A stretch of 64,000 nt of DNA from Pseudomonadota bacterium (lineage in GTDB: Bacteria > Pseudomonadota > Alphaproteobacteria > Rhizobiales > JAKPQE01). The stretch covers positions 1 through 64,000 of the forward strand of contig JAKPQE010000026.1 in NCBI GenBank assembly GCA_029572955.1, written 5' to 3'. Under the pieces are notes generated by a model, which searched no databases, was not told the DNA's origin, and worked only from the letters and a program-made list of their open reading frames with translations. Position numbers and translations under genes: made by a program. Every line of letters begins with the position of its first letter. Position 1 is the stretch's first letter. Below are positions 2,146 to 33,842 of this stretch, in pieces.

Positions 2146-3687
2146 TCACTCTTCACCTGCCAGGAGATTGCGGATTTCGGCCGGATCGCCGGCCGCGCCG
2201 ATCAAGGTAACCTCCGCCAGCTCGGCGGCATCGAAACACGGCAGGTTGCGCTCGTCCCAGCGAACGTCGACGAAACGACAGCGGCGATCGAGGATCTGCT
2301 GCGCGGCGGCATGGAAGCGGACGATCCCGAGATCGAGGACGACGACCGCCCGGTCGCTGCAGCAGGCCTCCCAGAAGGCCGTCGACTGAGGGTAGTCGGA
2401 GATGATCACGTCGGCGTCGGCCAGCGCCTGCGGGAACGGTCTCGTGTCAAGCTCGGCCAGGCCGGTCAGCGGATGGGGCAACCCGCTGAGCTTGCTCTCC
2501 GGGTGCGGCTTGACCGCAAATTCGACCGAAGCGTCCCGAAACGACTCGAGGACGGCGAAATGCTGGTGCAGATAGACCGGATCCGGCAACAGCGGAGGCA
2601 AGTTCTGCAGACCGCCATTGAAGCAGGTCGGCAGGTAGAGCACCCGCGGCCTCGCCCGCCGGGTTCTTGGCGCCGTCCTTGCGGCCTTGCGAAACAGCGG
2701 GTCTCCCCCTCCCCCGACGATCCTGGCCGGACGCAGGCTCCGATACTCGTCGCCGTAGCTCAAACGATTCGACAGATTCGCCGCCGCCTCGGTCGGGGCC
2801 ACCACCCTTTCTGCGACGATGCGATCGACCAATAGCAAAAGCGCCGCCTCATCGATGAAGCTTCCCGACCCGCCATGGTCGAAGATCGCCGTAGGAATAC
2901 CGCGACGCCTAGCTTCTAGTAGGCATGCCCGGACCGAAAAATTGCCGGCTGAATTGGCCCAGAGAGCGCGCGGCAGCTGCATCCCGGACAGGCCGTCGAG
3001 TAGCCGGTCGGCACGCTCCACGGTCGTGGCGATCTCGGCGCAGGCGGCGTTGCGCAGCGGCGCGACACGGCCGGTATCGACGGGATACCGATCGAGCAGA
3101 GCAACGAGTGCATCCGTCAAGAAGGACACCCGCCCGGCGTCGGCGCGCCCCCGTTTCAACGCCTGAGCCGCGATCGTCTCGGCATGGCGATAACCGATCG
3201 CCTCGCTGCCGAGGGCCGCCTCGCTGCGCAGCAATCCGTTGTGGCTGATTGCGACGGCGTCTGGCGCGATCAGCGCTTGGACAAGGCGGCCGGGCGTGGC
3301 AGACCACGATGCGACGCGGGCCAAACGCCGTGCCAGCGGCCGCGAGATGCGCTGATCGTATCTTGACGACGTGGCCTTGGCTGGGGCGGCCGCTACCGCG
3401 GCGCCATCCAGCCCCGCTCCGAGGATGACTGCGCCTTGGGCTTCGGCGGCTTCGGCGAGCCAGGCCCGATGACCGAACTCCCGGACGGTCGCGCTCGCCC
3501 TGGCGACTGCCTGGATGGCCGTGATCCGCAATCGCTCGTCCGCGAGCCCGGCGATCAACTGCAAGCTCAAGTCGCTTTGCTGCGATTGCCGAGCCCGCAG
3601 ATCGGCATAGGCGATCGGCCAGAAGAAGCCCGATCGCCAATCCGGCAGATTAGGCACCGCCGCCAGCTTTCCGGGGAGGGTCGTCAT
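2146..3687 (-). CDS. Putative GT-B glycosyltransferase of the nonulosonate cluster
   Basis: A 513-residue soluble protein. Its C-terminal half has the pattern FAVKPHPESK, then LADADVIISDYPQSTAFWEA. This is the phosphate/nucleotide-binding signature of GT-B proteins related to CDP-glycerol glycerophosphotransferases and capsule transferases. No signal peptide or membrane segment is visible. Its ATG overlaps the stop of the preceding gene by four bases (ATGA), so translation is coupled. It is one of four such proteins in this cluster. A role as transferase for one of the CMP-nonulosonic acids is inferred from context. No family name is certain. Confidence 0.6.
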   Translation of the reverse strand: MTTLPGKLAAVPNLPDWRSGFFWPIAYADLRARQSQQSDLSLQLIAGLADERLRITAIQAVARASATVREFGHRAWLAEAAEAQGAVILGAGLDGAAVAAAPAKATSSRYDQRISRPLARRLARVASWSATPGRLVQALIAPDAVAISHNGLLRSEAALGSEAIGYRHAETIAAQALKRGRADAGRVSFLTDALVALLDRYPVDTGRVAPLRNAACAEIATTVERADRLLDGLSGMQLPRALWANSAGNFSVRACLLEARRRGIPTAIFDHGGSGSFIDEAALLLLVDRIVAERVVAPTEAAANLSNRLSYGDEYRSLRPARIVGGGGDPLFRKAARTAPRTRRARPRVLYLPTCFNGGLQNLPPLLPDPVYLHQHFAVLESFRDASVEFAVKPHPESKLSGLPHPLTGLAELDTRPFPQALADADVIISDYPQSTAFWEACCSDRAVVVLDLGIVRFHAAAQQILDRRCRFVDVRWDERNLPCFDAAELAEVTLIGAAGDPAEIRNLLAGEE

Positions 3688-4832
3688 TTGCCACGCTCCG
3701 ATCGGGCGAGCCAGTCATCGATTACATCCAACGCCCGCGCCGCGGCAAGACTCGGGTCCGGCAATTCGGCTTGGGCCTTGCGCCAATAGTCGTCTCGGGC
3801 CTCCGGCGCAAGGGCATGGCGCATGGCGCTCGCCAGCGCCTCCCGGTCCCAGGCGACCGAACCGAGCCCCATGTCGGCACAGGGTAGCGACAGAAGACCG
3901 GTCCATCGGCGATAGAGTTCGGCAAGGCGCGGCTCCGATAGCACGTAGAGGACGGTGCCCAGCGGTCCGTTTGCCTGGCGGCTGAGTTGCGCGTGGTCGT
4001 AGCCGCAGGTCGAAAACGGCGTAATGAGGAGATCGGCGGCAGCGAGCAAGGGCTCCTGGTTCCGTTCGTCGTCGAAGTCGATGGCGAGACCGCATTGCGA
4101 GGCCAGGGCCGTGACGCGCTCGCGACACATCGACCCTTCCTTGGGGTGTGGCCGATAGACGAGGCGCGTGCGCTCGCGCTCGAAACCCGCGGCAATACGC
4201 AACACGTCGGCGATCGCCGCGCCATAGGCCGGCTCGTCCCAGAGTGGCTGGCCGGCGATCGCGAGGAACCACGTCTCGTTGCCGACTGCAAACCGGGTGC
4301 GCCCCTGCGAGCGCATCATATCGACATCGACTCCGGCATAGCCGACATGCTTCAGCGAGCCGACCGCAGTGGCGGTGGCGCTCCAGCGCTCTCCGGTCAG
4401 GCCGACGGCGACCTCGTCGATGCAGAGGAAGTGTCGGGGCAAGGTTCCGAATGTGCGATTGGCATCGCCCCAGAAATCCTGAACCGCAAAGGTGGGTAGG
4501 TCCTCGGACGCTATGTAGAGAAGCGCCTCATCGAGGCCGGCGCCGGGACCCGACAGACCGACGACGAGCGCGTCCGGCCGGTGTTTGGCAAGGATGGCCC
4601 GAGCCGCTGCCAAGAGAGCCGCGGCATCGCCGTCCGTCAGCGACGAGACGATTGGAGCGGCGAATTGCACGCAGTCATGCGAGCCGCCGCGATAGCGATC
4701 GGCAGCAGGCGCCTGAAGGACGCATGACACCTCGAATCGTCGATCGCCGGCCGCTGCCGCACCGAGTTCAACGATCGCCTGACCGGCCCCGACATCGCGC
4801 GCCGACAAGAGGAGGCGATGGCGACCGCTCAA
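3684..4832 (-). CDS. Putative GT-B glycosyltransferase (TTG start)
   Basis: A 382-residue protein read from a TTG codon at 4832 that overlaps the stop of the kinase-like gene (TTGA). The open frame continues upstream to 5066, but that stretch lies inside the kinase gene and has no protein-like character. The mature N-terminus would read MSGRHRLLLSARDVGAGQ, a plausible Rossmann start. The C-terminal half holds RLVYRPHPKEGS and LLAAADLLITPFSTCGYDHA, the same GT-B pattern as its neighbour. Its substrate cannot be read from the sequence. It is probably a sugar transferase acting on the products of this cluster. Confidence 0.58.
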   Translation of the reverse strand: MSGRHRLLLSARDVGAGQAIVELGAAAAGDRRFEVSCVLQAPAADRYRGGSHDCVQFAAPIVSSLTDGDAAALLAAARAILAKHRPDALVVGLSGPGAGLDEALLYIASEDLPTFAVQDFWGDANRTFGTLPRHFLCIDEVAVGLTGERWSATATAVGSLKHVGYAGVDVDMMRSQGRTRFAVGNETWFLAIAGQPLWDEPAYGAAIADVLRIAAGFERERTRLVYRPHPKEGSMCRERVTALASQCGLAIDFDDERNQEPLLAAADLLITPFSTCGYDHAQLSRQANGPLGTVLYVLSEPRLAELYRRWTGLLSLPCADMGLGSVAWDREALASAMRHALAPEARDDYWRKAQAELPDPSLAAARALDVIDDWLARSERGK

Positions 4833-5869
4833 AACCGACTCGCCCCGATTGCCTGGATGAGATCGGCACGCGCCGTCTGCATCTCGGCGAGATTGGCGAA
4901 CTTCTGCCATTCGCTGGCCGGCCAAGGCATTCCCTTCACTTCGGCCTCGCACATGATGGCGGCCGAGCGCATGACGAGGTTGCGCAGGCTCTCGCGCAGC
5001 CAGTCTCGGGACGACCCGATCTGGCCTCCGGCCTGCACATGGCCGGCGAGCAGGGCGCGTGCGCAAGTCAGGGCCATCGCGTCGTCCTGGATTTCGAGAA
5101 GGATCAGACGCTCGATCGCGAATGCCAGGTCGATCGTCGGTGATGCCCAGGTGACGACCGCTTCCTCAAAGTCGAGAAAAACCACGCCACCCCGTTCGTC
5201 CACGAGAATGTTTCCGGGATTGAGGTCGCCGTGAACGACCTGGTCCTGCGGCGAGGATTGCAGGAAACGATCGAGATGCCGTGCACAAAGGGCGCGGACG
5301 GCATACGGTATCCGGCATTGGCCGGCCGTTTGTGAGGTCACCGCCTCCAATCGCGCGACAAGCGTTGCCTTGCGGGCGACGGCAGCAGCACGGATCGCCG
5401 AGCCGTCGGGACAGACGGCCAGGGCCCCGTGCAGCCTCGCGATCGCGGCGCCGAGCGCGAACAACTCGGCCGGTTCGGCCGTGGGATGGCGTCCCTTGAC
5501 GAAGGGCGAGGCGCACAGGGCGGTGTCGGCATCGATACTGCGGGGAAAACCCTCCAGTATCACTGAAGCGCCAACGCCCGCCTGCAGAACGAACCGGGCG
5601 ACGGCATTGGCGGCAGTCTGCCAAGGCGCATGGGAAGCGGGGATCAGCTTGACGAACAGGCTGGCGCCGTCATTGTCGACGAACCGGAAGAATCGAGCCG
5701 ATGTTGCCTCATCGGACACGTCGCCGAGCCGATGGACCGCGCCGTTTCGGCCTATTGCCGCGATCATCCGCCGCGCAATGTCGGGATCGCATGGCAGGTC
5801 GGTGAACGCGAGCGTCCGCGTGCCCGTCCGCGCCGGAAATCGCGGGATCCAGGATGGCTTATTTGCCAT
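4829..5869 (-). CDS. Aminoglycoside-phosphotransferase-family kinase
   Basis: A 346-residue protein of the APH/choline-kinase fold. It has the catalytic loop HGDLNPGNILVD (the HGDxxxxN signature) followed by VVFLDFEEAV, the metal-binding DFG-equivalent. Such enzymes move the gamma-phosphate of ATP to a small hydroxylated substrate. ATG 5869 lies within the end of the upstream NeuB-like gene; a GTG nine bases earlier is an alternative. Placed between a NeuB-like gene and two putative glycosyltransferases, it is more likely a sugar or lipid-sugar kinase of the glycan pathway than an antibiotic resistance gene. The substrate is unknown. Confidence 0.75.
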   Translation of the reverse strand: MANKPSWIPRFPARTGTRTLAFTDLPCDPDIARRMIAAIGRNGAVHRLGDVSDEATSARFFRFVDNDGASLFVKLIPASHAPWQTAANAVARFVLQAGVGASVILEGFPRSIDADTALCASPFVKGRHPTAEPAELFALGAAIARLHGALAVCPDGSAIRAAAVARKATLVARLEAVTSQTAGQCRIPYAVRALCARHLDRFLQSSPQDQVVHGDLNPGNILVDERGGVVFLDFEEAVVTWASPTIDLAFAIERLILLEIQDDAMALTCARALLAGHVQAGGQIGSSRDWLRESLRNLVMRSAAIMCEAEVKGMPWPASEWQKFANLAEMQTARADLIQAIGASRF

Positions 5870-6950
5870 GACCTGCACGGCCGGAAGTCGGCCCGGAATA
5901 TGCGATGTCGTTCCAGGATACCGGTCGACCCATCCGGACGGCGCGGATCAGGCGACAACCCGCCACCGCCGACCAGAGTTCGGCGCCGATCCCGCGCGCG
6001 GGAAAGGCGAAGTCGATCGTTTCGAGCGAAATCTCGACCCCCGGTTCGAGGTCCCTTCGAGCCACCAGGCCCATGCGGTCGATCGGCTTGGCGCGGGCTG
6101 GGGAGAGCCGCCGCATCGGGTCCCCGATCGCCGCATGAATGGCACTGACTGCGGTCAGCAGGCCAGCAACCTCAGACAGTCGCATTGCGTGAAAAGTGTC
6201 CTGATCGATGTCGGCGCCGTCGGGCACGACGCCCTTTTCCAGCACGGACGCGCCGAGTGCCGCTCCGGCGAGCATCATCTCAAGGCCGTGATGATGGTCG
6301 GACAAGCCGATAGGTACCCGGAACAGCCGCGACAGCGTCGGGATCATCTGCAGGTGATGCTGGCTGAGCGGCGCCGGCGGCGCCGGGGGCGAGTGCTCGA
6401 TCAGGAGGGCCGAGGCGCCGCCCTCGCGCGCCCAGTTCTCGGCTGTCGCGATCTCGTCGAGCGACGACTTTCCGGTATCGATCATCAATGGCAGACCGAG
6501 GCCGGCAGCAAACCGGATCAGCGGCTCGTGGGTTATGTTGCTCGACGGGATCTTGATCGCAACGGCGCCAATATCGCGGGCGAATGCAGCCCCTTCGATG
6601 TCGTAGACCGATAGGACGAAATCGATGCCGGCGCCCCGCGCGACGGCGAACAGGCGGTCAGTCTCAGCGAGCGAGACCACCTTGCGCGCGATCAGCGCGC
6701 GGTAGTTCTCGTGCAAGATCTGATTGCCGTCGAAATAGGCGGCTTCGGTGCCATCGTCCAGGGCAATCTCGGCCCGGTGCAGCACCGCCCCCTTGACGAT
6801 CTCGATCCCCGCCGCGACCAGAGAACTCAGCATGAACTCGGCCAGTGCCATGTCCTGGTTGAAAAACAGGTCGATGTCCGGAAGCAGCAACGGTGCGGCG
6901 CCGCCGCCAACGAGCCGCTTGCCGAACCAAACCGAAGGCATGTCGGTCAT
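5859..6950 (-). CDS. Divergent NeuB-like nonulosonate synthase (first of four)
   Basis: A 363-residue protein with the NeuB TIM-barrel layout and a C-terminal SAF (antifreeze-like) domain at about 310-355. NeuB enzymes condense phosphoenolpyruvate with a 6-carbon hexosamine to make a 9-carbon ulosonic acid. Several hallmarks are changed. The N-terminal AExGxNHNG motif is absent (DIDLFFNQD lies at the equivalent place). SDHHHG at 217-222 keeps the first metal-binding His, but the usual EKH reads EKG at 238-240, removing the second. ATG 6950 overlaps the hisH stop (ATGA); the longer upstream frame lies inside hisH. It may use an unusual acceptor, work without the metal, or have another function. 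Confidence 0.7.
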   Translation of the reverse strand: MTDMPSVWFGKRLVGGGAAPLLLPDIDLFFNQDMALAEFMLSSLVAAGIEIVKGAVLHRAEIALDDGTEAAYFDGNQILHENYRALIARKVVSLAETDRLFAVARGAGIDFVLSVYDIEGAAFARDIGAVAIKIPSSNITHEPLIRFAAGLGLPLMIDTGKSSLDEIATAENWAREGGASALLIEHSPPAPPAPLSQHHLQMIPTLSRLFRVPIGLSDHHHGLEMMLAGAALGASVLEKGVVPDGADIDQDTFHAMRLSEVAGLLTAVSAIHAAIGDPMRRLSPARAKPIDRMGLVARRDLEPGVEISLETIDFAFPARGIGAELWSAVAGCRLIRAVRMGRPVSWNDIAYSGPTSGRAGHGK

Positions 6951-7591
6951 AGCGAGAGGAACCTTTCGAGCAAAGCCAGGCCGGCCGGTCCGCTCTTTTC
7001 GGGATGGAACTGGCACCCGTAGAGCGGCGGCTTGCCGATGACGGCCGCAATGCGGCGTCCGCCGTAGTCGGTATCGGCGATGCGATGCGCCGGATCGGAC
7101 GGCCAGGCGGTGTAGGAATGGACGAAATAGAAGGCCGTGCCCGGCTGCGTGCCTGCGAGGATCGTCTCGGACCAGTCCGGCCCTTCCGGCGCAGGCCAGA
7201 TGCCGCGCCAGCCGATCTGCGGGATGCGGTGCGGGGTGCCGTCGGCGCGCGTCACTGGGATCCGCTGGACGCTGCCCGGAACGATCTTTAGGCCCTCGTA
7301 CACCCCGAATTCCTCACTCGAATCGAGCAGCATCTGCATACCGACGCAGATGCCGAGGAGCGGCCGCCCGGACTGGGCGAACGCGCAGACGGAATCGCGC
7401 AGGCCGTGAGCGATGAGCGTTTCGACGCATGCGCCGAACGCGCCGACGCCCGGCACGACGAGGCGATCCGCCTCCGCGACGCGGCGTGGATCACCGGTCT
7501 GGTCGACCTCGGCGCCAACCGCCTCGAGTGCACGACGCACCGACAGGAGATTGCCGACACCGTAGTCGCAAAGCGTGACTTTGTAGCTCAT
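6947..7591 (-). CDS. hisH: HisH-like glutaminase subunit of sugar amidination system
   Basis: A 214-residue class I glutamine amidotransferase. The nucleophile Cys82 lies in GICVGMQML, and the His and Glu of the triad lie in CQFHPEKSG near the C-terminus. It should release ammonia from glutamine for its HisF partner, encoded seven bases upstream. Its setting in a nonulosonate cluster, with HisF and a WbpG/PseA-type PP-loop enzyme, shows it is the glycan-modification paralogue and not the histidine pathway enzyme. ATG 7591 is chosen over an earlier in-frame codon at 7693 because residues from MSYKVTLCDYGVGN match the family start. Confidence 0.88.
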   Translation of the reverse strand: MSYKVTLCDYGVGNLLSVRRALEAVGAEVDQTGDPRRVAEADRLVVPGVGAFGACVETLIAHGLRDSVCAFAQSGRPLLGICVGMQMLLDSSEEFGVYEGLKIVPGSVQRIPVTRADGTPHRIPQIGWRGIWPAPEGPDWSETILAGTQPGTAFYFVHSYTAWPSDPAHRIADTDYGGRRIAAVIGKPPLYGCQFHPEKSGPAGLALLERFLSL

Positions 7592-7598
7592 CGGTAAA

Positions 7599-8372
7599 TC
7601 AATCGGCTCGCAGCGGTTCGCGAACCGCGATGTCGTTCGCACGGGCGGTGGCGCGCAGCTCGGCAAGCGAATACCTTCGATAGTGCAAGGCATCGGCGAT
7701 GCCGATGGCGTCGGCCATGCCCTCGGTCACCGCCGTGACCAGGTCCTGCGGCTTGCCGAAGCCACCCGAAAGGATCACAGGAACCGCAACCGCTCCGGCA
7801 ACGGCGCGCGCGAGTTCCACGTCCAACCCATTGCGGGTCCCTTCCCGGTCGACCGACGTCAACAGGACCTCGCCCGCCCCGAGATCGGCGGCGTGCCTAG
7901 CCCATTCGACCACATCGTAGCCGGTGTGCTCGCGGCCGTTGTCGACGAAGGCCTCCCACCGCCCCTCACCTTGGCGCTTTGCCTCGATCGACACGACCAT
8001 GCATTGCGAACCGAAGCGACGCGCGACATCGCCAATCAACTCCGGCGTCCGCGTCGCCTGGGTGTTAATCGCTACCTTGTCCGCGCCGGCCTTCAGCAGG
8101 GTCTCCACATCGGCGATTGAGCGAACGCCGCCGCCGACCGTCAGAGGTATGAAGATGTTCTCCGCCGTGCGCCGTATGATGTCGGTGAGGCTGTTGCGGC
8201 CGTAAAGACTGGCGACGATGTCCATATACAGCAGTTCGTCCGCACCCTCTCGGTAGTATCGCAAGGCATATTCGTTGGGATCTCCCAGTTTTCGCAACCC
8301 CTCGAGATGCACTCCCTTGATCAGGTTCGGCCCCTTGATATCCAGTCGCGCAATGATACGCAGGTTCTTCAT
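7599..8372 (-). CDS. hisF: HisF-like ammonia-channel cyclase subunit of sugar amidination system
   Basis: A 257-residue (beta/alpha)8-barrel closely following HisF, with the catalytic Asp11 in ARLDIKG and phosphate loops VGGGV and ILSGG. The second catalytic acid of true HisF, Asp130, is Glu130 here (VVSIEAKRQ). This supports a role other than imidazole-glycerol-phosphate synthesis. In the known WbpG/PseA systems HisF passes ammonia from HisH to the sugar-modifying PP-loop enzyme. The gene lies 18 bases after that enzyme's stop and is followed at once by hisH. The function is inferred from this arrangement. Confidence 0.87.
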   Translation of the reverse strand: MKNLRIIARLDIKGPNLIKGVHLEGLRKLGDPNEYALRYYREGADELLYMDIVASLYGRNSLTDIIRRTAENIFIPLTVGGGVRSIADVETLLKAGADKVAINTQATRTPELIGDVARRFGSQCMVVSIEAKRQGEGRWEAFVDNGREHTGYDVVEWARHAADLGAGEVLLTSVDREGTRNGLDVELARAVAGAVAVPVILSGGFGKPQDLVTAVTEGMADAIGIADALHYRRYSLAELRATARANDIAVREPLRAD

Positions 8373-8390: not shown

Positions 8391-9710
8391 CTAGTCCGAC
8401 CACACGGTCTTGCGCAGCGACCAATTTCCATTGGCGAACTGCCATAGATGCGGCGAACGGAAATGATCAGTCAACCGATCGAAATAGTGTCGATCCATGA
8501 TCGGTTGCTCGAACATGTCGGCCGCCCTCCCGAATTTCTCGGGATGGATCGAAAGATACTTGAAGATTTCATCGGCGAATCGCTCCGGCCATTCGCCGTC
8601 ATAGCGGCGCACCAAAGCCACGCCTTCCTCGCGATCGATGTCCCGTGACCGGATCTCCTGAGCGGCGTCGTAACTCGCCCGGCCGATGCCGAATTTTATG
8701 TACGTCGTGTAGTAATGAAAGTCATCTATGCGGTCGTCGATTGAGTTATACTTTGAATACGTGCCTGGCGTACGCTCTGGCGAAACCTGAAACCCGCCGT
8801 TTTCGACCGAATAGTAGTAACAACTCTGCGGATGCCATTTCAGATAGTAGCCGAGATAGTGCACTTCGATCCCGGCCTCGCCGAGAATATCTGGATGCTC
8901 CGGCATGTATAGCTGAAATTCCGAGACGTTCACGCCAAACTGATTGACGAGATTACTCATGGACACGCCGCCAAAATAGGTGTCTTCTAGGCCGTATTGA
9001 CTGGAAAAAAAACTGCGATCTCGCAAGGACGACGACGTATCTCCGATTGGATTACCGTACTCTGCTTCGTTTTCACCGAAGACAACAAGGGAAATCCCGA
9101 AACGTACGGCCATCTTCGGGGCGAGGTTCTTCTGGCCGATGATGAACGGCTGGAACGGATGGAACAGATTGTCGACGGCCAAACGGGTCAACAGTCGGTG
9201 CACCATGCCATTCGGCGTGACGAGAATATTGTCAAAGCCGGCATGGATCCAAGCTTGGTGATTTCGCCAACCCCACTCGGTATATACGTGCGGCGCCCAG
9301 GTCACCGTCAGAGGATTCATGCCGTATTTGTATTTTAATACATGCGCGGCGTAGAAGCTGTCCTTACCGCCCGAACCTGGAAGCAGGCAATCATAGTGTC
9401 CGTCATCGCGGCGATAGCGGTTGCACAGATCGACCAGCCGCTTCTCGCGCTCGGCCCAGTCGATGGTCTGATGCTTGTGCTCAGCGAGGCGACAGGCATC
9501 GCAGACGCCTTCGTCGTCGAAGTTGATCGTCGTCTTGCGGCTGGCACGGGTGTGTTGGAATTCGACTGCGGAGTTCGGCCGCTGATTGGAGATGACGCAC
9601 CGCTTGCAGTAGCGGACACCGGTCGGCAGTCCGTACAATGCCGCGCGCTCCTTGGCATCCGGAGCAAAAGGTGCCAGATCGATCGGGCCCGGATAGGGGA
9701 TTTTCTTCAT
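8391..9710 (-). CDS. N-acetyl sugar amidotransferase (WbpG/PseA/WbuX type)
   Basis: A 439-residue PP-loop enzyme. Cys35/Cys38 (CKRC) and Cys70/Cys73 (CDAC) form a likely zinc site. The ATP-pyrophosphatase loop SGGKDS is at 113-118. This layout is that of the N-acetyl sugar amidotransferase family, which turns the acetamido group of a sugar into an acetamidino group. Ammonia is supplied by HisH/HisF, both encoded directly downstream. ATG 9710 begins MKKIPYPGPI; an in-frame extension to 9740 lies in the spacer. The base composition is noticeably AT-richer than the flanking chromosome. The likely substrate is a legionaminic- or pseudaminic-type sugar made by this cluster. Confidence 0.88.
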   Translation of the reverse strand: MKKIPYPGPIDLAPFAPDAKERAALYGLPTGVRYCKRCVISNQRPNSAVEFQHTRASRKTTINFDDEGVCDACRLAEHKHQTIDWAEREKRLVDLCNRYRRDDGHYDCLLPGSGGKDSFYAAHVLKYKYGMNPLTVTWAPHVYTEWGWRNHQAWIHAGFDNILVTPNGMVHRLLTRLAVDNLFHPFQPFIIGQKNLAPKMAVRFGISLVVFGENEAEYGNPIGDTSSSLRDRSFFSSQYGLEDTYFGGVSMSNLVNQFGVNVSEFQLYMPEHPDILGEAGIEVHYLGYYLKWHPQSCYYYSVENGGFQVSPERTPGTYSKYNSIDDRIDDFHYYTTYIKFGIGRASYDAAQEIRSRDIDREEGVALVRRYDGEWPERFADEIFKYLSIHPEKFGRAADMFEQPIMDRHYFDRLTDHFRSPHLWQFANGNWSLRKTVWSD

Positions 9711-9733
9711 GGTTACTTGCCTCAATGAGCGCC

Positions 9734-10561
9734 TTACCAAGCACTGAGACCGCCGTCGACAACCATATTCTGTCCAGTGACATAGGAAGCCGCATCGGAG
9801 GCGAGAAAGATCAGTGCACCTGTCATTTCGTCGGACTGGGCCATACGACCGAGAGGGACACGCCTGCCGTAACGTTCCATGAATTCGGCATTCTGGCCGC
9901 TCACGATGCCGCCCGGCGTCAGCGTGTTGACGCGGATGTTGTGCGGCGCCCAGACGGTCGCGAAATAGTGCGTCAAGCTCACGATGCCGCCCTTGGAAGC
10001 GGCATAGACCGGCGGCGTCGAAATCGGCCGGCCCATATAGAGTGAATCGTCGTAGATCCGATTGTCGGGGCCCAGAATCCCGTAGATCGACGCCGTCTGG
10101 ATGATGCTGCCTCCGCGACCGTGAGCAATCATGCGCCGGCCTGCGGCCTGGGCCACAAGAAAGGCGCCATCGAGATTGACGGCATTGACTTTGCGCCAGG
10201 TCTCGAGGACGTAGTCCTCCGGCGGCGTCAGAAAGGCGGCCAGATCGTCGGTCTTCGTCGCCGCGTTGTTGGAGACGATGCGAACCGGACCGAGCTCGCG
10301 CTCGACCCGCTCCATGAGGGCCTCCACGCTGATGGGATCCGACACGTCGCAGACCACCCCGAGCGTGGCAGCGCCGTAAGTCTCTGCGATCTCGCCGGAA
10401 AGCTCTTCGACGGCCGCCGAATCGAGGTCGACGACCGCGACCTTTGCGCCGAAATCGGCCAGTGCGGCCGACAAGCGCCGTCCCAAAATGCCGCAGGCGC
10501 CGGTGACGACCGCGGCGCGATCAGTGAGATCGAACAGGGATCTGAAATGGCCGGTTGTCAT
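9734..10561 (-). CDS. Short-chain dehydrogenase/reductase, PtmA-like
   Basis: A 275-residue SDR with the cofactor loop TGACGILGRRL near residues 20-30, the NNA motif, a catalytic Ser in TASIYG and YAASKGG as the YxxxK pair. The C-terminus reads ASYVTGQNMVVDGG, typical of classical SDRs. It is coupled to the CMP-synthetase gene by an ATGA overlap and followed by the amidotransferase. An SDR in the same position, PtmA, occurs in the Campylobacter legionaminic acid locus, so oxidation of an amino-sugar precursor is the best guess. The substrate is not visible in the sequence. Confidence 0.8.
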   Translation of the reverse strand: MTTGHFRSLFDLTDRAAVVTGACGILGRRLSAALADFGAKVAVVDLDSAAVEELSGEIAETYGAATLGVVCDVSDPISVEALMERVERELGPVRIVSNNAATKTDDLAAFLTPPEDYVLETWRKVNAVNLDGAFLVAQAAGRRMIAHGRGGSIIQTASIYGILGPDNRIYDDSLYMGRPISTPPVYAASKGGIVSLTHYFATVWAPHNIRVNTLTPGGIVSGQNAEFMERYGRRVPLGRMAQSDEMTGALIFLASDAASYVTGQNMVVDGGLSAW

Positions 10562-11259
10562 TGCGACCGCCTTTCCTGGAGCAACTGCTCAACGAATAGG
10601 AAGTCGAGGGGCGTATCGATATCGATCGACCGCTCTTCCGGCATTTCGAACAGGATGGTGTCGCCGTAGAAGACCTGCGGATCGGAGAGAAACGGCTCGC
10701 GGCGCCAGACGTAGATCGATGCGTTCATGTCGAAACATCGCGGCGCGTCCTGGCGGCGCTGGATCGGCGGGACCGCGGACTTGGACGGCGCCACGGTTCC
10801 GTCCGACCGTTCTTCCACGAGGTTGAAGTAGGGCGATCGGCGGGCCGGCGCGCCGGTGATCACGCTCGTCACGCCGCTCTCGTCGAACAGCGCAAGCGCG
10901 CCGGCAATATCGTCGGCGATGCGCAGAGGCGAGGTCGCATCGGTGTCGACAATCACGTCGTAGTGCTCGCCGAAGCTGCTTTCGGCGGCCATCACCGCGT
11001 GGATGATCGCCGGCAGCTTGCTGATGGTGTCGGTCGCCAGATCGTCGGGCCGGCGGACGACAAGGTCGGCCCCGTAGTCCCGGCCGATGGTCAGGATCGC
11101 TTCGTCGTCGCTCGATACCACGACCCGATCGAAAAACCCGCATCCAACGGCCATCTCGAGTGTCCAGGCGATCAGCGGCTTGCCCGCGATGGGACGCCGG
11201 TTCTTCCCCGGTATACCCTTGGAGCCGCCGCGCGCGCAGACTGTGCAAATGCGCCTCAT
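10558..11259 (-). CDS. CMP-nonulosonic acid synthetase 1 (NeuA/PtmB/LegF family)
   Basis: A 233-residue cytidylyltransferase. The CTP-binding motif CARGGSKGIPGKN is at residues 8-20, followed by VVSSDDEAI and the metal-site region SIDIDTPLDF near the C-terminus. It activates an ulosonic acid as its CMP-sugar for transfer. It overlaps both neighbours by four bases, between a Gfo/Idh-type oxidoreductase and an SDR. That order resembles the ptm/leg loci, so CMP-legionaminic acid synthesis is likely. It is one of three such enzymes in the window, and the exact sugar is not proven. Confidence 0.88.
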   Translation of the reverse strand: MRRICTVCARGGSKGIPGKNRRPIAGKPLIAWTLEMAVGCGFFDRVVVSSDDEAILTIGRDYGADLVVRRPDDLATDTISKLPAIIHAVMAAESSFGEHYDVIVDTDATSPLRIADDIAGALALFDESGVTSVITGAPARRSPYFNLVEERSDGTVAPSKSAVPPIQRRQDAPRCFDMNASIYVWRREPFLSDPQVFYGDTILFEMPEERSIDIDTPLDFLFVEQLLQERRSQ

Positions 11260-12188
11260 GCCGCAAATCCTTCCTCGACCCAGGTGCCGCAGTCCCTGGC
11301 CGCTTCGATCGCCGCAATCATCTCGACAACGGCGATCCCCTCTTCGGCGGTGCAGTAGCCGCCGGCATTGTTGATGACGGCGCGATGCATCTCCGCCAGC
11401 ATGCCATCCGTATCCGCTGCAAATACCTCGACGGCGCCGTCGACCGCAAGCCGCCCCGATGCCAGATCCAGAACGAAGCTATGGCGCACTGTCTCGACCA
11501 CAATGCGGCGGCGCAGCGGCCGGGCCAGATAGTCGAGGGCGAGCGTCACCGAGGGACAGCGCGCGGTCTCGACCAGCACCGTCGCAGTATCGTCGGCGGC
11601 AACGCCGAGCGCCTCGCCACGACCGCCGAGTGCGGCAAGGCGCCGCCACGGCCCGAACAACCAGAGCATCAGATCGAGCTCGTGGCTGAGATCCCGCAAC
11701 ACGCCTCCCCCGGCCTTACGGGAGGCGGAATAGCCCTGCCGCCAATCCCGCCCGGGTCGCCACTGTGAGAGGTTCTGGCCTACTTCCAGCATCGCCACTA
11801 CCGACGCTTCACCCGCCAAACGCGCGCGCAAGGCCCGCACGGCCGGATGAAAGCGCAGCTGATAGCCGACGGCCATCGCGGCGAAATCGGACTTCGGCAA
11901 TGGCGCCGGGGACGATAACAACGGCTTTTCGACAAGCACGGTGCCGGCATATCCGGACTGTCCGATGCGCCGGACCGTCTCGCCGTGGCGGGCGGTCTCG
12001 TCGGCCACCACAACATAGGCGGGCGAAAGGGACTCGAGCGCCGCCTCGAGGCCGCTGAAGCCTTGATAACCCGAGACCTGGCGCCGACTGACGACCCCGA
12101 CGTCGAGCCCCATCCCGGACAGGACCTGCGCGTGCCGTTCCCCGATCGAGCCGAACCCGACGACCAGTGCCCTCGACTGCGACGTCAT
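11256..12188 (-). CDS. Gfo/Idh/MocA-family oxidoreductase
   Basis: A 310-residue protein. It has an N-terminal Rossmann fold (VVGFGSIGERHAQVL, residues 8-22), then VLVEKPLLS, the EKP motif that carries the catalytic lysine of this family. The C-terminal half is the alpha/beta substrate domain, with GGGVLRDLSHELDL. These enzymes oxidise or reduce sugars using NAD(P). It sits between the PtmE-like guanylyltransferase and CMP-synthetase 1, with four-base or one-base overlaps. It therefore probably acts on a sugar of the legionaminic route or tailors the finished sugar. Confidence 0.82.
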   Translation of the reverse strand: MTSQSRALVVGFGSIGERHAQVLSGMGLDVGVVSRRQVSGYQGFSGLEAALESLSPAYVVVADETARHGETVRRIGQSGYAGTVLVEKPLLSSPAPLPKSDFAAMAVGYQLRFHPAVRALRARLAGEASVVAMLEVGQNLSQWRPGRDWRQGYSASRKAGGGVLRDLSHELDLMLWLFGPWRRLAALGGRGEALGVAADDTATVLVETARCPSVTLALDYLARPLRRRIVVETVRHSFVLDLASGRLAVDGAVEVFAADTDGMLAEMHRAVINNAGGYCTAEEGIAVVEMIAAIEAARDCGTWVEEGFAA

Positions 12189-13252
12189 CAGGGCTCCCCG
12201 ATCATGCCGAAGACGTCGGCGAACTCGTCGCGCGCCCGCTCCAGATCGTCGAGGCGGCCGATGTCGATCCAGTACTCGCGGATCGGGAACACCGCGACGT
12301 CGCGCCCGACGGCTCCCATCTTACTCAGCAATTCGGGCATATCGAAGGGCATCCCTGTCGGGACCAGTCCCAAGACGTCCTCAGAAATGGCGTAGATGCC
12401 GGCATTCACGAGAACGCGTTTCAACGGCTTCTCGACGATCGAAACCATCCGATGATCCTCTACCTCGATCACGCCATAGGGGATTCGGAAATCGTATTCG
12501 CGCGCGCAGACCGTGGCGCCGGCGCCGTGGTCGCGATGATAGTCGATCAGATGAGCGAAATCGACCCTGGTGAGGATATCGCCGTTCATCACGATGAGGT
12601 CGCTTCCCAGGCCCTCGGGCAGGAGCGCGAGGGCGCCGGCGGTTCCCGTTGGCGTCGCCTCCTCGATATAGCGGATGTCGACGCCGAACTGACGCCCGTC
12701 GCCGAAGTGATTGACAATATCGTGCCGCCGATAGTTGACCGAGATGAAGAAGTCGCGGAAGCCCTGGGCGGCGAACCGCTCGACGATGGTCTCCAGTATC
12801 GGCTTGCCGCCGACGGCAAGCATCGGCTTGGGGACGTCGTCGGTGAGTGGCCGCAGCCGTTGTCCGAGACCGCCGGCCATCAGCACCACCGTCTCGCCTC
12901 GCTCCTGCGAGACTACGAAATCCCGCTCCTGAATTAGATCGACGACCCGCCCGGAGGAATCCAGAATCGGCATCTGGCGGAAGCCGCCCCGCCGCATCCT
13001 GGCGAGCACCGCAGTCCGCGGCTCGGTGTCAAACGCCGACACGGGGGCCGGGTTCATGACGGCCGACACCGGAGCGTTCAGGCCAACGCCGCGCAGCAAT
13101 CCTCGGCGGCAATCGCCGTCGGTGATCGTTCCCAGAAGCCTCCGATCCTCGGTGACGATAATGACGATCTTCGCCGACAGCCTTTCCAGCGTCGCAAAGG
13201 CCGAACTCAGCGTGTCATCGGGTGCGATCAGGTATTTCTCAATGTCGTGCAT
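12188..13252 (-). CDS. CBS-domain sugar-1-phosphate nucleotidyltransferase, PtmE-like
   Basis: A 354-residue fusion. Two CBS repeats occupy about residues 1-115. A nucleotidyltransferase domain runs from 120 on, with LMAGGLGQRLRPLTDDVPKP and VMNGDILTRV. The same architecture is found in PtmE, the glucosamine-1-phosphate guanylyltransferase of the Campylobacter legionaminic acid route, which supplies a GDP-linked precursor. Start ATG 13252 gives MHDIEKYL; the open frame continues to 13378 through sequence that is not protein-like. A 160-base gap separates it from the preceding neuC gene, so a separate promoter may lie there. The nucleotide specificity is inferred. Confidence 0.83.
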   Translation of the reverse strand: MHDIEKYLIAPDDTLSSAFATLERLSAKIVIIVTEDRRLLGTITDGDCRRGLLRGVGLNAPVSAVMNPAPVSAFDTEPRTAVLARMRRGGFRQMPILDSSGRVVDLIQERDFVVSQERGETVVLMAGGLGQRLRPLTDDVPKPMLAVGGKPILETIVERFAAQGFRDFFISVNYRRHDIVNHFGDGRQFGVDIRYIEEATPTGTAGALALLPEGLGSDLIVMNGDILTRVDFAHLIDYHRDHGAGATVCAREYDFRIPYGVIEVEDHRMVSIVEKPLKRVLVNAGIYAISEDVLGLVPTGMPFDMPELLSKMGAVGRDVAVFPIREYWIDIGRLDDLERARDEFADVFGMIGEP

Positions 13253-13412
13253 GTTCGAATTCTCGCGTGGTCGCAATTGCGCAGACTGCGATGGCTCTGC
13301 AGTCGACGAACCGACGGCAGCCGAGATACCCCCGTCGCGCTGTCGGCTGCAGCCGCGCTGGCCGTCCCGAGACCCCATGTCCCCGCGGCGCGGGCGGCGG
13401 CCCCCCTATTCC

Positions 13413-14621
13413 TCAAGGCTTCCCGCCCTCCGCTGCCGCCGATGACGCATCGCCTATCGGGTAGTCCCGGAACGGCTTGACCCGAAGCGCGTCGAGCGAC
13501 GCCGTACGGACGATCGCGACGATCCGCTCGGCGGCCCCGGGACCGCCATACGGTGATCTCCGCTCCCGGGTCCGCGTCAGATGCGCCTCCGAGAGCGCCC
13601 GCGTGAGGGCAGCATCGACGGCGTCGGCGCGAGCTTCGCAGTCGATGACCGACGGCGCCCGCGGCCTTCCATCCTGGCGACTGCCGACATTGACGGTCGG
13701 CGTGGCGAGCTGTGGAGCCTCGATCAGTCCGCTCGACGAATTGCCGATCACGGCCGAGGCCTCGGCGACGGCGCTCCAATAACGCCGCGTGCCGAGGTTC
13801 TCGACAGACCGCGCTCGCTCCGGATTGCGCGATGCCCAGGCACCGATTGCGGCGCGGACCGCCGACGAGCCGGGATCGGCATTGGGTGCGGTGATGACCA
13901 CCTGGAACTCGGGTCGCCGGTCGAGTGCCGCAAGGATCGCCGCCAGACCCGACAGGCCGTAATCGCAGCTGTTGGTTTCGGGGTGCCAGGTCAGTACCAG
14001 GAAAGATCCCTCGGGCGCCAGACCGAGATCTTCGCAAAGCGCCCCCCGGGTCAATAGCGGCGTCGCTGCCATGGCATCGAGAGACAGCGTCCCGACGACA
14101 TAGACCCGATCGGCCGGCTCGCCCAGCTGCAGCACGCGCCGTGCAAATTCATCCGCGGCGACGGCGTGCAGCGACGCCAATTTGGTGATGGCGTGGCGGA
14201 TCGACTCATCCACGGCGCCTTCCGTGCACTCGCCGCCATGGAGGTGAAGCAGCGGAATGCGAAGCATGAGGGTCGTTGAGGCAACCGCCAGCAGTTCGTA
14301 GCGATCGCCGAGGACGATCGCCAGGTCGGGCTTCAAGTTGTCGAAGGCATCGGCCAGGCCAAGAGCACCGAGGCCGATGGCCTTTGCGGCCGCAACGCCT
14401 GTATCCGACGACAGCAGCATTGCCACGCGTGCGGCGATGGTGAACCCGTCGGCCTCAATCTGGCGCCAGGTCTCGCCGAACTGATTGGACAGGTGCGCCC
14501 CGGTCACGACCAATTGCAGCTCGAGGACCGGATCGGCGGCGATGGCGTGCAGCAACGGCGCCAGCATGCCGTATTCGGCACGGGTTGCCGTGACCACTGC
14601 GACCCGACGTTTCTCAGACAA
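13413..14621 (-). CDS. Hydrolysing UDP/GDP-sugar 2-epimerase 1 (NeuC/LegG family)
   Basis: About 402 residues of the NeuC fold: RVAVVTATRAEYGML at the N-terminus, VLGDRYELLA, HLHGGECTEGAVDESIRHA and VIGNSSSGLIEA. These enzymes epimerise carbon 2 and release the nucleotide, giving the free hexosamine used by NeuB. The start is a probable TTG at 14621, six bases after GGTGGGG; GTG 14633 is the alternative. The frame runs far upstream into the next gene without meaning. A Pro/Ala-rich tail is slightly longer than usual. A second neuC lies 1.5 kb upstream, so two different substrates are likely. Confidence 0.88.
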   Translation of the reverse strand: MSEKRRVAVVTATRAEYGMLAPLLHAIAADPVLELQLVVTGAHLSNQFGETWRQIEADGFTIAARVAMLLSSDTGVAAAKAIGLGALGLADAFDNLKPDLAIVLGDRYELLAVASTTLMLRIPLLHLHGGECTEGAVDESIRHAITKLASLHAVAADEFARRVLQLGEPADRVYVVGTLSLDAMAATPLLTRGALCEDLGLAPEGSFLVLTWHPETNSCDYGLSGLAAILAALDRRPEFQVVITAPNADPGSSAVRAAIGAWASRNPERARSVENLGTRRYWSAVAEASAVIGNSSSGLIEAPQLATPTVNVGSRQDGRPRAPSVIDCEARADAVDAALTRALSEAHLTRTRERRSPYGGPGAAERIVAIVRTASLDALRVKPFRDYPIGDASSAAAEGGKP

Positions 14622-14668
14622 CGGCAACCCCACCGACCGGTCTTGCCACCGAGCGCTGTCGGGTTTGG

Positions 14669-16111
14669 TCAAACGCCGGCTTCGGTCGCATTCGCATTCC
14701 CGGCCCTCCCCGCCTTCTTGGCGATCGCGACGATGGCGCCGCGCACTCGCTCGGTCGAACCGTCGTCGTCGAAGCCGAGATAGTCGCAAAAGACTTCGCT
14801 CCGTCTTGCTCTCGAGGTCTCGTCGCGGAACGTGCCGGAAACGATCTCCTCGATCGCATCGACGAGATCCTCTGGCGATGTGGCGACGCGGAAGATGTCC
14901 AACTCGTCCGCCAGATAAACATTGTCCGGATAGGTGTCGACCGCCTCGGCAAAGACCGGGATGACCGTCGGCACGCCGAGAATGCGCGCCTCGAGCAGAA
15001 CCGTCGAGCCAAAGCCGATCACGGCATCGGAATCCCGGATGAGCGCCGCCGCGTCGCCGTCGACGGCCTCGCAGTTGGAGATGTCGACCATGGGCCGGCC
15101 GGTTGCCGCTTCCACGGCGCGTTCGATTTCCGAAACCCACCAGTCCTCGACCGATTTCGGCTTAATCTTGAAATCCACCTCGGGATGAGCGATGGCGAGG
15201 CGGCCGATGGTGCCGTGAACCTGGTCGAACAGGCGAACGAAGCCGTGATCGTCGTTAGCGCTAAAAAGCTTGGACCGGCTCGGCCCGGCCGAGCCGAGCC
15301 CGCCTGCATAGTGCCCGAACGAGAACAACGCCACTTGCTTGCGCGTCCTTGCGGCCTTCGTCCGAAACGGACCCTCCGCGGCGAAAAGCCGATCCATGCG
15401 CGGCAACCCGGTCACAACGATGCGCTCGCTCGGCGCCACGCCCGCCGCAGCGAACAACCGCTTGGCGCGCTGGTTGGCGACAAGCACGGCGGTACCTGGG
15501 AAGCGCAGATTGCGTGCCTTCAAGGTCTCTAACCGGACGTGGAAATGGCGCTCGCCGAGGACAGTGAACTCCTTATGGATCGCCACGAACGGCAGGCCGA
15601 TTGCGTCGGCCGAGGCTGCCCAGGGGATCTGGTACTCGTAGTGCGCGGCCGGCGTGACGATACAATCGATCCGGCCGATCTCCTTCATCTGCGCAAGGAC
15701 CTCTCGAAGAAACCTGCCCAGCCGCTCGCGCGCTGCAAGGATGCCCTGATCGCGTTCCTGCCAATAGTGATAGGGCGTCCGCGGCGGCAGCAGTGGACGG
15801 GTAGCAAAGAGCGAATTGATCGCTTGGACGACGCCGTTCGGCGCCTCGAAGACATCGATATCGGGAGAATTCGCCAGCATCAGGAAATCCTGGCGACTGC
15901 GGCTGGTGCTGAACCCAAGAACGCGAATCGCCTCCCCTCCCGCTACGTCGCCGAGCGGCGCCATGTCGCCAATGATGCGCTTGGCGGCAAGCCTTGCAAG
16001 CGGCCTTTCCGGATGGCCGGGGAGGCGGCACAGTCCGTTGAGAGCCCCCGACGCCAGACGGAACGCGAACCGCTTGAGGGGCGCGCGCGGCAGGGATGCC
16101 AGTTCTGGCAT
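14669..16111 (-). CDS. Putative GT-B glycosyltransferase
   Basis: A 480-residue soluble protein. Its C-terminal half shows HPEVDFKIKPKSVEDWW and LIRDSDAVIGFGSTVLLEARILGVPTV. This is the same phosphate-binding/GSTxxxE pattern as CDP-glycerol glycerophosphotransferase-like GT-B proteins. The N-terminal half contains IVTPAAHYEYQIPWA, perhaps the acceptor domain. The ATG overlaps the stop of the neuC2 gene (ATGA), and the gene is flanked by neuC homologues on both sides. A transferase for a nonulosonic acid is the likely role; the family and linkage are unknown. A perfect 8-bp inverted repeat (GGCTCGGC/GCCGAGCC) lies inside the gene near 15,285. Confidence 0.58.
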   Translation of the reverse strand: MPELASLPRAPLKRFAFRLASGALNGLCRLPGHPERPLARLAAKRIIGDMAPLGDVAGGEAIRVLGFSTSRSRQDFLMLANSPDIDVFEAPNGVVQAINSLFATRPLLPPRTPYHYWQERDQGILAARERLGRFLREVLAQMKEIGRIDCIVTPAAHYEYQIPWAASADAIGLPFVAIHKEFTVLGERHFHVRLETLKARNLRFPGTAVLVANQRAKRLFAAAGVAPSERIVVTGLPRMDRLFAAEGPFRTKAARTRKQVALFSFGHYAGGLGSAGPSRSKLFSANDDHGFVRLFDQVHGTIGRLAIAHPEVDFKIKPKSVEDWWVSEIERAVEAATGRPMVDISNCEAVDGDAAALIRDSDAVIGFGSTVLLEARILGVPTVIPVFAEAVDTYPDNVYLADELDIFRVATSPEDLVDAIEEIVSGTFRDETSRARRSEVFCDYLGFDDDGSTERVRGAIVAIAKKAGRAGNANATEAGV

Positions 16112-17262
16112 CAGTAGGTGATCCGCTTCTGGACGGAGATGTCCGAAGTCGCGATGATGTCGGCAATCCGCACACCGGCCTGACCGTCGCCGTAGACCGC
16201 ATCGGATTGGTAGTGGCCATGGGCAATCTGGCGGCGGATCGCCTGCTCGATCTCGGTCCGGTCGTTGCCGACGTCGATGACGTTGTGGCCGCGCTCGCGA
16301 CCGGCCTGGCGGGTGCCGATATTGACCGAAGGGGTTCCGATGAAGGCGCCGTCGCGCAGGCCACTTGAGGAATTGCCGACGAGGCAGACCGTCTGCCGCA
16401 TTAGCCGGACGTAGACGTCGATCGGCAGGTTCTTGAAGAAATGCATGTTCTTCGCCAAGCCAGCCTCACGCCATTTGCGGATGCCGCGGGCGACGTCGTC
16501 CGATCCCGCATCGGCATTGGGCCATAGCACCACGGCCTGCATGCCCACATCGTGCACCGCCTGGAGGGTCTCCGTGATCTGCTTCTCTCCCTGGCCGTAT
16601 TCGGTCGTCACCGGATGCTGCGAGACGAGCAGGAACGGCTCCGACAAATCGATCTTGTCGCCAACGCCGCCCTCGAACAGATTACCCGGCACGACCATGG
16701 CTTCGCTCTGCAGGATCTCGGCAATAAGATCGATGCGTGGGCAGCCGACCCGGTGCACCGTCGCCGGGTCTTCGCCGAGGCGGATGATGCGCTCTCGCGC
16801 ATCGCTGCTCGCCGGAAAATGCAGATGCGCCAGCTTGGTGATCGCATGGCGAATACTCTCGTCGATCGTACCGCTAACTTCACCGCCCATGGTATGTGCA
16901 AGCGGCACGTTCATATAGGCCGCGGCCAAGGCAGTGGCCATCGTCTCGAACCGGTCGCCGACGGTCACGACCACGTCCGGCGCGAGGTTTTCGAGCACCG
17001 TCGGCAGCTCCAGCAGACCGAGGCCAGTCGACTTCGCCATCGTGACCGGGGTCTCGCCCTCGATCAGCATGTTGATCTTGGCGGCCGGCGCGAAACCGTC
17101 CTTTTCGATCAGGCGCACCACCGCACCATAGCGATCGAGCAAAGCAGAAGCCCCGACTACGAGCTGCAGCTCAAGGTCCGGATGAGCCTTCACCGCCCGC
17201 ATCACCGACTTTATGCTCGAATAATTTGCGCGAGATGCCACCACGATACATACGCGTTTCAT
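16111..17262 (-). CDS. Hydrolysing UDP/GDP-sugar 2-epimerase 2 (NeuC/LegG family)
   Basis: A 383-residue NeuC homologue: VVASRANYSSIKSV, VTVGDRFETMATALAAAYM, HTMGGEVSGTIDESIRHAITK and CLVGNSSSGLRDGA. It should convert a nucleotide-diphospho-2,4-diacetamido sugar to the 2-epimer with loss of the nucleotide, feeding the NeuB enzyme encoded 14 bases upstream. It differs clearly from the other NeuC at 13413-14621, so the two are not a recent duplication. Its neighbours neuB2 and neuA2 form a neuA-neuB-neuC triplet typical of legionaminic or sialic acid loci. Confidence 0.9.
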   Translation of the reverse strand: MKRVCIVVASRANYSSIKSVMRAVKAHPDLELQLVVGASALLDRYGAVVRLIEKDGFAPAAKINMLIEGETPVTMAKSTGLGLLELPTVLENLAPDVVVTVGDRFETMATALAAAYMNVPLAHTMGGEVSGTIDESIRHAITKLAHLHFPASSDARERIIRLGEDPATVHRVGCPRIDLIAEILQSEAMVVPGNLFEGGVGDKIDLSEPFLLVSQHPVTTEYGQGEKQITETLQAVHDVGMQAVVLWPNADAGSDDVARGIRKWREAGLAKNMHFFKNLPIDVYVRLMRQTVCLVGNSSSGLRDGAFIGTPSVNIGTRQAGRERGHNVIDVGNDRTEIEQAIRRQIAHGHYQSDAVYGDGQAGVRIADIIATSDISVQKRITY

Positions 17263-17276
17263 CGTTTTACTTATCC

Positions 17277-18278
17277 TCAGATCAAATCTTCGAAGCTGAT
17301 AGTATCATCGACGGCCAAGGGACGTTTCGCCTCGCGGCCGATCACCTCGCGATACCGCGAAGCCGGAATGCCGTTTCCCGGCTTCTTGAACGCGATGGCG
17401 CCATACTCAAGCACCTCGCCCGCATAGATTTTCTTTGCTGCTACAATGCTTTTCTGGAATATTTTCTTCATTTCTCGATATTTCTCGATATCATTCTTGT
17501 CTATCTCGCTCGTTGCCATAGTCCAAGTGTCACGCAAGGCCTGAACGAACACCTTGAATTCTTCCGGCTCCATAGAATTCGCCGCATCGCTGCCGTACAT
17601 CGCTCGAGAAAACGTAATGTGCTTCTCAATCGCCGTGGCGCCGCGGGCGGCGGCGGCAATGCCGGCGGCATGACCGAGGGTATGGTCCGAGAATCCAATC
17701 GGCAAGCCATAACGGTCGCGCATCTCTTCCAGGACATTCAACCCAACCTGCTCTGGCGGACAAGGATAACTCGATGTACACTGCAGAACGGTCAATGGGC
17801 CACCTGAGAGAAGTACCGAGACCGCGCTGTCAAGTTCTTCCCAATTACTCATACCTGACGAGAGATATACGGGCTTTCCCGTGTTAGCGACATGCTCCAA
17901 CAGCGGAATATTGGTCACTTCTCCGGAGGCAATCTTGTAGGCCGTGACCCCGATCTCCTCCAAGAGATCAACAGCCTCGTTGGCGAACGGCGAAGACATA
18001 AATCCGACGCCGCGCTCTTCGGCATGACTCTTCAGTTGCTTCCACTGTTCTTGAGTGAATGCCGTTCGCTTGAAATATTCGAACCGTGGCTCGACGCTGA
18101 AATACGGCGGCATTGGCGCGTTCTTGAGGGTCTCCGCTTCAGCAATATGTGTTTGGAACTTGACGATATCCGCTCCGTTCGCGGCAGCGACTTCAATCAA
18201 CTTCATCGCATTGCCGAAAGACCCGTCGTGAACGGAACCGACCTCGGCGATGATCACGCCCGCTCTATTCTGTTCCAT
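17277..18278 (-). CDS. NeuB-family nonulosonate synthase 2 (variant motif)
   Basis: A 333-residue NeuB/LegI homologue: IIAEVGSVHDGSFGNA at 9-24, IVKFQTH, KIASGEVTN, GFSDHTLGH and AIEKHITFSRAMYGSDAANS. The metal-binding His of SDHT and EKH are both present. Two usual elements differ: AExGxNHNG reads AEVGSVHDG, and GPDH reads GSDA. The SAF domain at the C-terminus (VAAKKIYAGEVLEY onward) is complete. It overlaps neuA2 by 14 bases and precedes neuC2. The expected reaction is condensation of phosphoenolpyruvate with a 2,4-diamino-trideoxyhexose; the altered pocket may signal a different isomer. The base composition is AT-richer than the chromosomal flanks. Confidence 0.87.
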   Translation of the reverse strand: MEQNRAGVIIAEVGSVHDGSFGNAMKLIEVAAANGADIVKFQTHIAEAETLKNAPMPPYFSVEPRFEYFKRTAFTQEQWKQLKSHAEERGVGFMSSPFANEAVDLLEEIGVTAYKIASGEVTNIPLLEHVANTGKPVYLSSGMSNWEELDSAVSVLLSGGPLTVLQCTSSYPCPPEQVGLNVLEEMRDRYGLPIGFSDHTLGHAAGIAAAARGATAIEKHITFSRAMYGSDAANSMEPEEFKVFVQALRDTWTMATSEIDKNDIEKYREMKKIFQKSIVAAKKIYAGEVLEYGAIAFKKPGNGIPASRYREVIGREAKRPLAVDDTISFEDLI

Positions 18279-22896: not shown

Positions 22897-22900
22897 TGTC

Positions 22901-24693: not shown

Positions 24694-24805
24694 GCCGATC
24701 TTTTACCTGGCGCTTGGCGGTTTATCTACGGTCTTAGCCCGAGACTTGTGATCAAATCTTCTGTCGTTCCAACCGGATGTGCTGCCCGCCCGCCCCCGCA
24801 GGGCG

Positions 24806-28833: not shown

Positions 28834-28844
28834 GGGATCGCGCC

Positions 28845-29867: not shown

Positions 29868-29960
29868 CTCATCAACGGCAAATGATTGCCTTCTCCTTTG
29901 GCTTCAAATCGCGGCGGGCGCGGCAGGTGCCGGGGCACGACGTCTCAACGCCCGCAAATG

Positions 29961-32772: not shown

Positions 32773-32782
32773 CTTCCGTGCC

Positions 32783-33781: not shown

Positions 33782-33842
33782 GATCGATCGGTCGGTTCGG
33801 GTGTTTCGGCGGGCGGCCGCGGCCGGGCCCACCATGGCTACC

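Follow-up and report, generated by a model that had tools for sequence, protein, structure and literature searches.

A widespread clade of NeuB-like proteins lacking the second metal histidine, usually paired with an APH-family kinase

What is the role of a NeuB-like protein that lacks a metal histidine and several substrate residues of its family, and is encoded close to ordinary NeuB genes? This question is raised by a gene in the window, i.e., the stretch of 64,000 nucleotides (positions 1 to 64,000 of contig JAKPQE010000026.1) analysed here. The span 5859-6950 corresponds exactly to a single minus-strand gene, since the plus-strand reading is interrupted by an internal stop codon. Its product, P0001, has the NeuB plus SAF architecture, with matches to NeuB (PF03102, 136.2 bits, cut-off 22.1) and SAF (PF08666, 24.4 bits, cut-off 21). 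It scores well below the equivalog cut-offs of both N-acetylneuraminate synthase (TIGR03569, 139.8 bits, cut-off 399.65) and PseI (TIGR03586, 120.5 bits, cut-off 340.25). The gene and its sites, with the corresponding residues of Neisseria meningitidis NeuB (NmNeuB), are as follows.

5859-6950, minus strand: EKG-clade NeuB-like gene encoding P0001, 363 aa (PF03102 136 bits, SAF 24.4 bits)
5904-6071, minus strand: SAF domain, residues 294-349; Phe316 at the position of NmNeuB Arg314 (Pfam, alignment)
6231-6239, minus strand: EKG codons, residues 238-240, EKH/ERH in NmNeuB, with His236 replaced by Gly (sequence, joint alignment)
6288-6302, minus strand: SDHHH, residues 217-221, NmNeuB Ser213 and His215 kept (sequence, alignment)
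6477-6479, minus strand: Asp158, at the position of NmNeuB Ser154, C-terminal end of a barrel strand (alignment, AlphaFold model)
6537-6539, minus strand: Asn138, at the position of NmNeuB Glu134 (alignment)
6852-6866, minus strand: FFNQD, residues 29-33, replacing NHNG (sequence, alignment)

The motif changes that an initial annotation had read from the sequence are all found in P0001: EKG stands at residues 238-240, FFNQ (residues 29-32) takes the place of NHNG, and both SDHHH (217-221) and the SAF domain (24.4 bits) persist. Its wider claim that metal and substrate motifs are lost agrees with the alignment: P0001 has lost the second metal histidine along with several substrate residues.

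The AlphaFold (AF2) model of P0001 (pLDDT 94.2) superposes on Neisseria NeuB 2wqp with a Z score of 36.6 and an rmsd of 2.2 Å over 343 residues, spanning residues 1-350. The whole fold, TIM barrel and C-terminal SAF domain included, is thus common to P0001 and N. meningitidis NeuB (2wqp/1xuu) at an identity of 22%, and the superposition proposed earlier as a check returns a full NeuB plus SAF protein. It had also been considered that intact metal ligands might lie elsewhere in the structure; judged by sequence, the structural match places none there. The top PDB sequence match, Campylobacter jejuni PseI (8h2c), has the same fold (Z 32.6) but still shows EKH, STG and the Arg, a pattern lost in the EKG clade. 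Metal-independent KDO8P synthases, which are a precedent for the loss of a metal ligand, possess a related barrel (Z about 25-27), yet they lack the SAF domain and the kinase partner and have lost a different ligand. Active sites of TIM barrels lie in the strands and at their ends. In the model, Asp25, Asp158, His186 and Ser217 of P0001 are located at barrel-strand ends, and Lys53, Ser114, Lys133 and Glu238 within strands.

Relatives were sought across 84,980 species genomes with a hand-made DNA signature for GxSxH...GAxxxEKG. It matched 49 loci, 45 of which encode true relatives; the proteins of the other four (L035, L047, L054, L067) are unrelated and were rejected. Full-length relatives are 35-51% identical to P0001, their frames are all open, and their hosts belong to the Alpha-, Beta- and Gammaproteobacteria, the Verrucomicrobiota and, for a single MAG, the Omnitrophota; named carriers include Legionella, Thiomicrorhabdus, Hoeflea, Thalassospira and Magnetospirillum. 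Relatives found by homology alone (L025, L143 and L147/L168, the last being loci that the signature would miss) all carry EKG, which argues that EKG in P0001 is not a chance change. Profile scores are bimodal, members reaching at least 469 bits and all other NeuB proteins in 347 genomes of the order at most 218. A tree built by a quick method without bootstrap from 38 members and 52 NeuB proteins outside the clade separates the two sets at a single branch (SH-aLRT 100). The clade is rare: among 385 sampled genomes of the class, a clear member was detected only in the genome of the window and in G355. An automatic peptide-pattern search from P0001 alone found no relatives in genome contigs, a phylum-wide search with a two-row profile yielded no additional member, and a plasmid search gave scores only at the level of ordinary NeuB. 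P0001 is a member of a discrete, conserved and widespread clade within the NeuB superfamily. Single members had been annotated in Legionella, but in the literature searched neither the clade nor its altered pocket or its pairing with a kinase is described.

To read the pocket, the clade was aligned jointly with the Neisseria NeuB sequence and ordinary NeuB, using the site residues listed for the Neisseria enzyme, in which Arg314 is essential (PMC6795526). In Neisseria numbering, the equivalents of Lys53, Lys129, Ser213, His215, Glu234 and Asp247 are kept in the clade, Thr110 is Ser, Glu25 is Asp or Glu and Ser132 is kept in 35 of 44. Other positions are changed in a consistent manner. Ser154, a serine in 21 of 21 ordinary NeuB proteins, is Asp in 44 of 44 relatives; Glu134 is Asn in 43 of 44, Thr183 is Pro in all 44, and Arg314 is Phe or Trp in 44 of 45 clade members, while the position of Gln55 holds either Glu or Ala, and that of Tyr186 holds Pro, His or Asn. 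The changes His30 to Phe and His236 to Gly are fixed or nearly fixed, the invariance of Gly240 (P0001 numbering) and of the other pattern residues being partly built in because the signature includes EKG. P0001 itself differs from the Neisseria enzyme by His236→Gly, Glu134→Asn, Ser154→Asp, Gln55→Ala, Tyr186→Pro, Arg314→Phe and the loss of NHxG. Of the two metal histidines, His215 is retained as His219 of P0001 and His236 corresponds to Gly240; Phe316 replaces the SAF arginine that reaches the active site of the partner subunit (Arg314). Inside the clade, and with the EKG-signature positions left out, conservation at the published site positions is significantly above background (entropy 1.18 vs 1.89, p=0.007), as it is for the extended site list (entropy 0.95, p<5e-5). 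The alignment shows a rebuilt rather than an eroded pocket.

The gene is part of an operon ordered WbuX - HisF - HisH - NeuB-like - kinase - glycosyltransferase-like, and further genes related to nonulosonic acids (NulO) lie at higher coordinates of the window.

3684-4832, minus strand: glycosyltransferase-like protein, cluster C3, start inferred; weak CDP-glycerol glycerophosphotransferase similarity, below the Pfam cut-off
4829-5869, minus strand: APH-family partner kinase, HGDLNPGN and DFE intact (PF01636 60.6 bits, cut-off 23.2; AF2 pLDDT 91.6)
6947-7594, minus strand: HisH-type glutaminase of the amidination set
7599-8372, minus strand: HisF/WbuZ-type amidination protein
8391-9740, minus strand: N-acetyl sugar amidotransferase of the WbuX family (TIGR03573 365 bits, cut-off 203)
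10558-11259, minus strand: PseF-like CMP-nonulosonate cytidylyltransferase, below the equivalog cut-off
12188-13378, minus strand: sugar-1-phosphate nucleotidyltransferase, PtmE-like by context
13413-14630, minus strand: NeuC-type hydrolysing epimerase, 5' end approximate (TIGR03568 405 bits, cut-off 236)
17277-18278, 23611-24693 and 29961-31166, minus strand: the ordinary NeuB genes of the window, three in number

As the initial annotation noted, the gene overlaps the amidination set: the hisH stop codon and the start codon of the neuB-like gene have a common ATGA (6947-6950). On the other side, the ATG of the kinase gene (5869) lies within the 3' end of the neuB-like gene, the overlap amounting to 11 nt.

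The kinase is an almost constant companion of the clade. Of the 39 loci that hold an APH-type kinase gene, 37 have it directly downstream on the same strand, at most 115 nt away, and in 29 it overlaps or touches the NeuB-like gene; four further loci break off just behind the NeuB-like gene. The kinase gene is absent from L036 and G355, and an unassigned open frame directly upstream in G355 looks APH-like by eye, without recognition by Pfam. The window kinase belongs to the APH family (PF01636, 60.6 vs 23.2 bits) and has HxDxxxxN and DFE intact, as do the partner kinases of all but six loci. In those six (L040, L042, L048, L051, L056, L069), the catalytic Asp of HGD is Glu or Gln, and they are exactly the loci of a NeuB-like subgroup that reads SCH or TCH and has an Arg or a His beside the Asn138 site, so that kinase activity may not be universal in the clade. 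Distances among kinases and among NeuB-like proteins are correlated (Mantel r 0.82, 0 of 5000 permutations), as is expected from a co-inherited unit, and co-inheritance of the whole operon would also produce this correlation. The model of the window kinase matches the amicoumacin kinase AmiN, homoserine kinase and N-acetylhexosamine 1-kinase with tied scores (Z 20-22), at only 12-15% identity; such matches do not single out a substrate.

An ordinary NeuB was found in 42 of 43 carrier genomes, often 3-30 kb away on the same contig, and the single exception is a MAG. Consequently, the EKG-clade protein is not the synthase of its pathway. In Thiomicrorhabdus, loci encode LegB, LegC, NeuD, NeuB, NeuC, a PtmE-like protein, a CMP-synthetase and Maf along with the NeuB-like/kinase pair, and the amidination genes are present in L134 and absent from L135. 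Since other genes fill every known step to CMP-legionaminic acid, the NeuB-like protein must have another or an additional function. LegB was detected in 27 of 43 carriers vs 21 of 240 genomes of the window's class, a rough comparison as carriers span several classes, and is absent from the other 16 carriers; WbuX occurs in 33 of 43.

A further clue comes from Legionella pneumophila Sg1, whose LPS locus comprises ORF8 (N-methyltransferase), ORF9 ('neuB family'), ORF10 and ORF11, the canonical NeuB being ORF24 (PMC3766260). Disruption of ORF8 or ORF11 abolishes the epitope of mAb 20/1, from which the authors proposed a late LPS modification (PMC3766260). In amoeba-passaged lines, independent indels and nonsense mutations arose in ORF9 (lpp0833), ORF10 (lpp0832, 'phosphotransferase') and ORF11 (lpp0831) (PMC12308824). 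The Legionella loci L049, L063, L073 and L167 show the order methyltransferase - EKG NeuB-like - APH - GT-like, i.e., the gene order of Sg1 ORF8-11, together with a separate canonical NeuB. Compared with Sg1 ORF9 (lpg0768/lpp0833) and its neighbours, the window has only the NeuB-like - kinase - GT part in common, amidination genes standing directly upstream where Sg1 instead has the methyltransferase. The cassette thus appears to be that of Legionella LPS ORF9-11, as suggested by gene order, annotation and a Legionella relative rather than by the lpg0768 sequence. The function of ORF9-11 is described as not understood, though their loss is repeatedly selected in amoebae.

Together, these observations make it probable that the clade acts in late modification of legionaminic-type NulO glycans, either the LPS O-chain or flagellin. 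As an overall account, we favour, with some reserve, the view that the EKG-clade protein and its kinase, often with GT-like and methyltransferase proteins, take part in late modification or assembly of such glycans. The suggestion of the initial annotation that the protein could be an enzyme on a CMP-linked sugar fits this late-pathway context. We infer that the protein is catalytic, that its substrate is phosphorylated by the kinase and that Asp158 has a role in the reaction. In the favoured, though rather doubtful, scheme, the kinase would phosphorylate a sugar or another small substrate, and the barrel, equipped with the two lysines, Ser213, His215, Asp247 and an Asp for Ser154 and deprived of the second metal histidine, would act on a keto-acid sugar, either at a C-C bond or by isomerisation, dispensing with the normal Mn site. 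The glycosyltransferase-like protein would then install the resulting modified residue. More generally, the NeuB-like protein and the kinase might constitute a two-part system for a new ATP-dependent NulO step using a barrel without the two-histidine metal site, which we put forward tentatively.

Two other proposals of the initial annotation, a metal-independent synthase and an inactive regulator, are both possible but less probable than a re-tooled active protein, given how strongly the new pocket residues are conserved. KDO8P synthases tolerate the loss of a single metal ligand, and together with DAHP synthases they are the next structural neighbours of the P0001 model; a metal-independent or one-ligand PEP-dependent synthase making a second, different NulO can be conceived on this pattern, with the equivalents of Lys53, Lys129, Ser213, His215, Glu234 and Asp247, Thr110 (as Ser) and, in 35 of 44, Ser132 still in place. 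Yet the Asp at position 154 brings a negative charge into what we take to be the PEP phosphate site, Gln55 and Tyr186 are lost, and in the Thiomicrorhabdus 6S3-12 cluster two 'synthases' are accompanied by only a single hydrolase gene and a single CMP-synthetase gene. Moreover, Arg314, essential in Neisseria NeuB (PMC6795526), is Phe or Trp. We consider such a synthase unlikely. The idea that the protein takes over from NeuB as a second complete NulO synthase was dropped, an ordinary NeuB being present in 42 of 43 genomes.

Nor do we expect, at similarly low odds, a non-catalytic NeuB-fold sensor, scaffold or activator of the kinase or of the ordinary NeuB. The loss of the metal histidine and Arg314, the nearly constant presence of an ordinary NeuB and the tight pairing with the kinase would suit it; a pure scaffold would not need a pocket conserved with its own new residues, but ligand sensing would yield an equal conservation signal. 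The three ordinary NeuB copies of the window could make one copy redundant, which would allow a decaying or chance-altered NeuB. This reading can hardly be entertained: it is refuted by the conserved clade, with identical changes in three proteobacterial classes (Alpha, Beta and Gamma), in the Verrucomicrobiota and in a MAG of the Omnitrophota, and by a full-length, open frame with translational overlaps on both sides. A pseudogene was dropped too, as was a chain-terminating cap for ABC-exported O-chains, the latter being a misfit with the Maf/flagellin clusters.

Databases would label the clade as sialic acid synthases, a label probably wrong for all its members, so that NulO-pathway predictions based on counting NeuB genes would over-count.

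Several minor observations concern distant proteins and neighbouring genes. The IMG/VR viral contig L079 encodes (ORF 12360-13248 of the reverse complement) a distant NeuB-fold protein with EKG, scoring 34 bits to P0001. Very divergent NeuB-domain proteins, with 35-75 bits to PF03102, were found in G799 (C1:237492), G817 (C5:136682), G818 (C17:163437) and G828 (C241:10970) and apparently represent other classes. A Methyloprofundus MAG (G802) contains eleven NeuB-family matches in its single genome. Clusters C4 and C14, found beside relatives, have a glycosyltransferase-like look, clear Pfam matches being absent or the proteins unscanned. In the window, long open frames without a Pfam match adjoin pathway genes at 2146-3687, 14669-16111 and 18987-20423 (minus strand). 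Finally, the region 16111-33835 (minus strand) carries the three ordinary NeuB genes along with NeuC, PseB/PseG, LegB/LegC/NeuD and CMP-synthetase genes, i.e., at least three nonulosonic acid pathways within one island.
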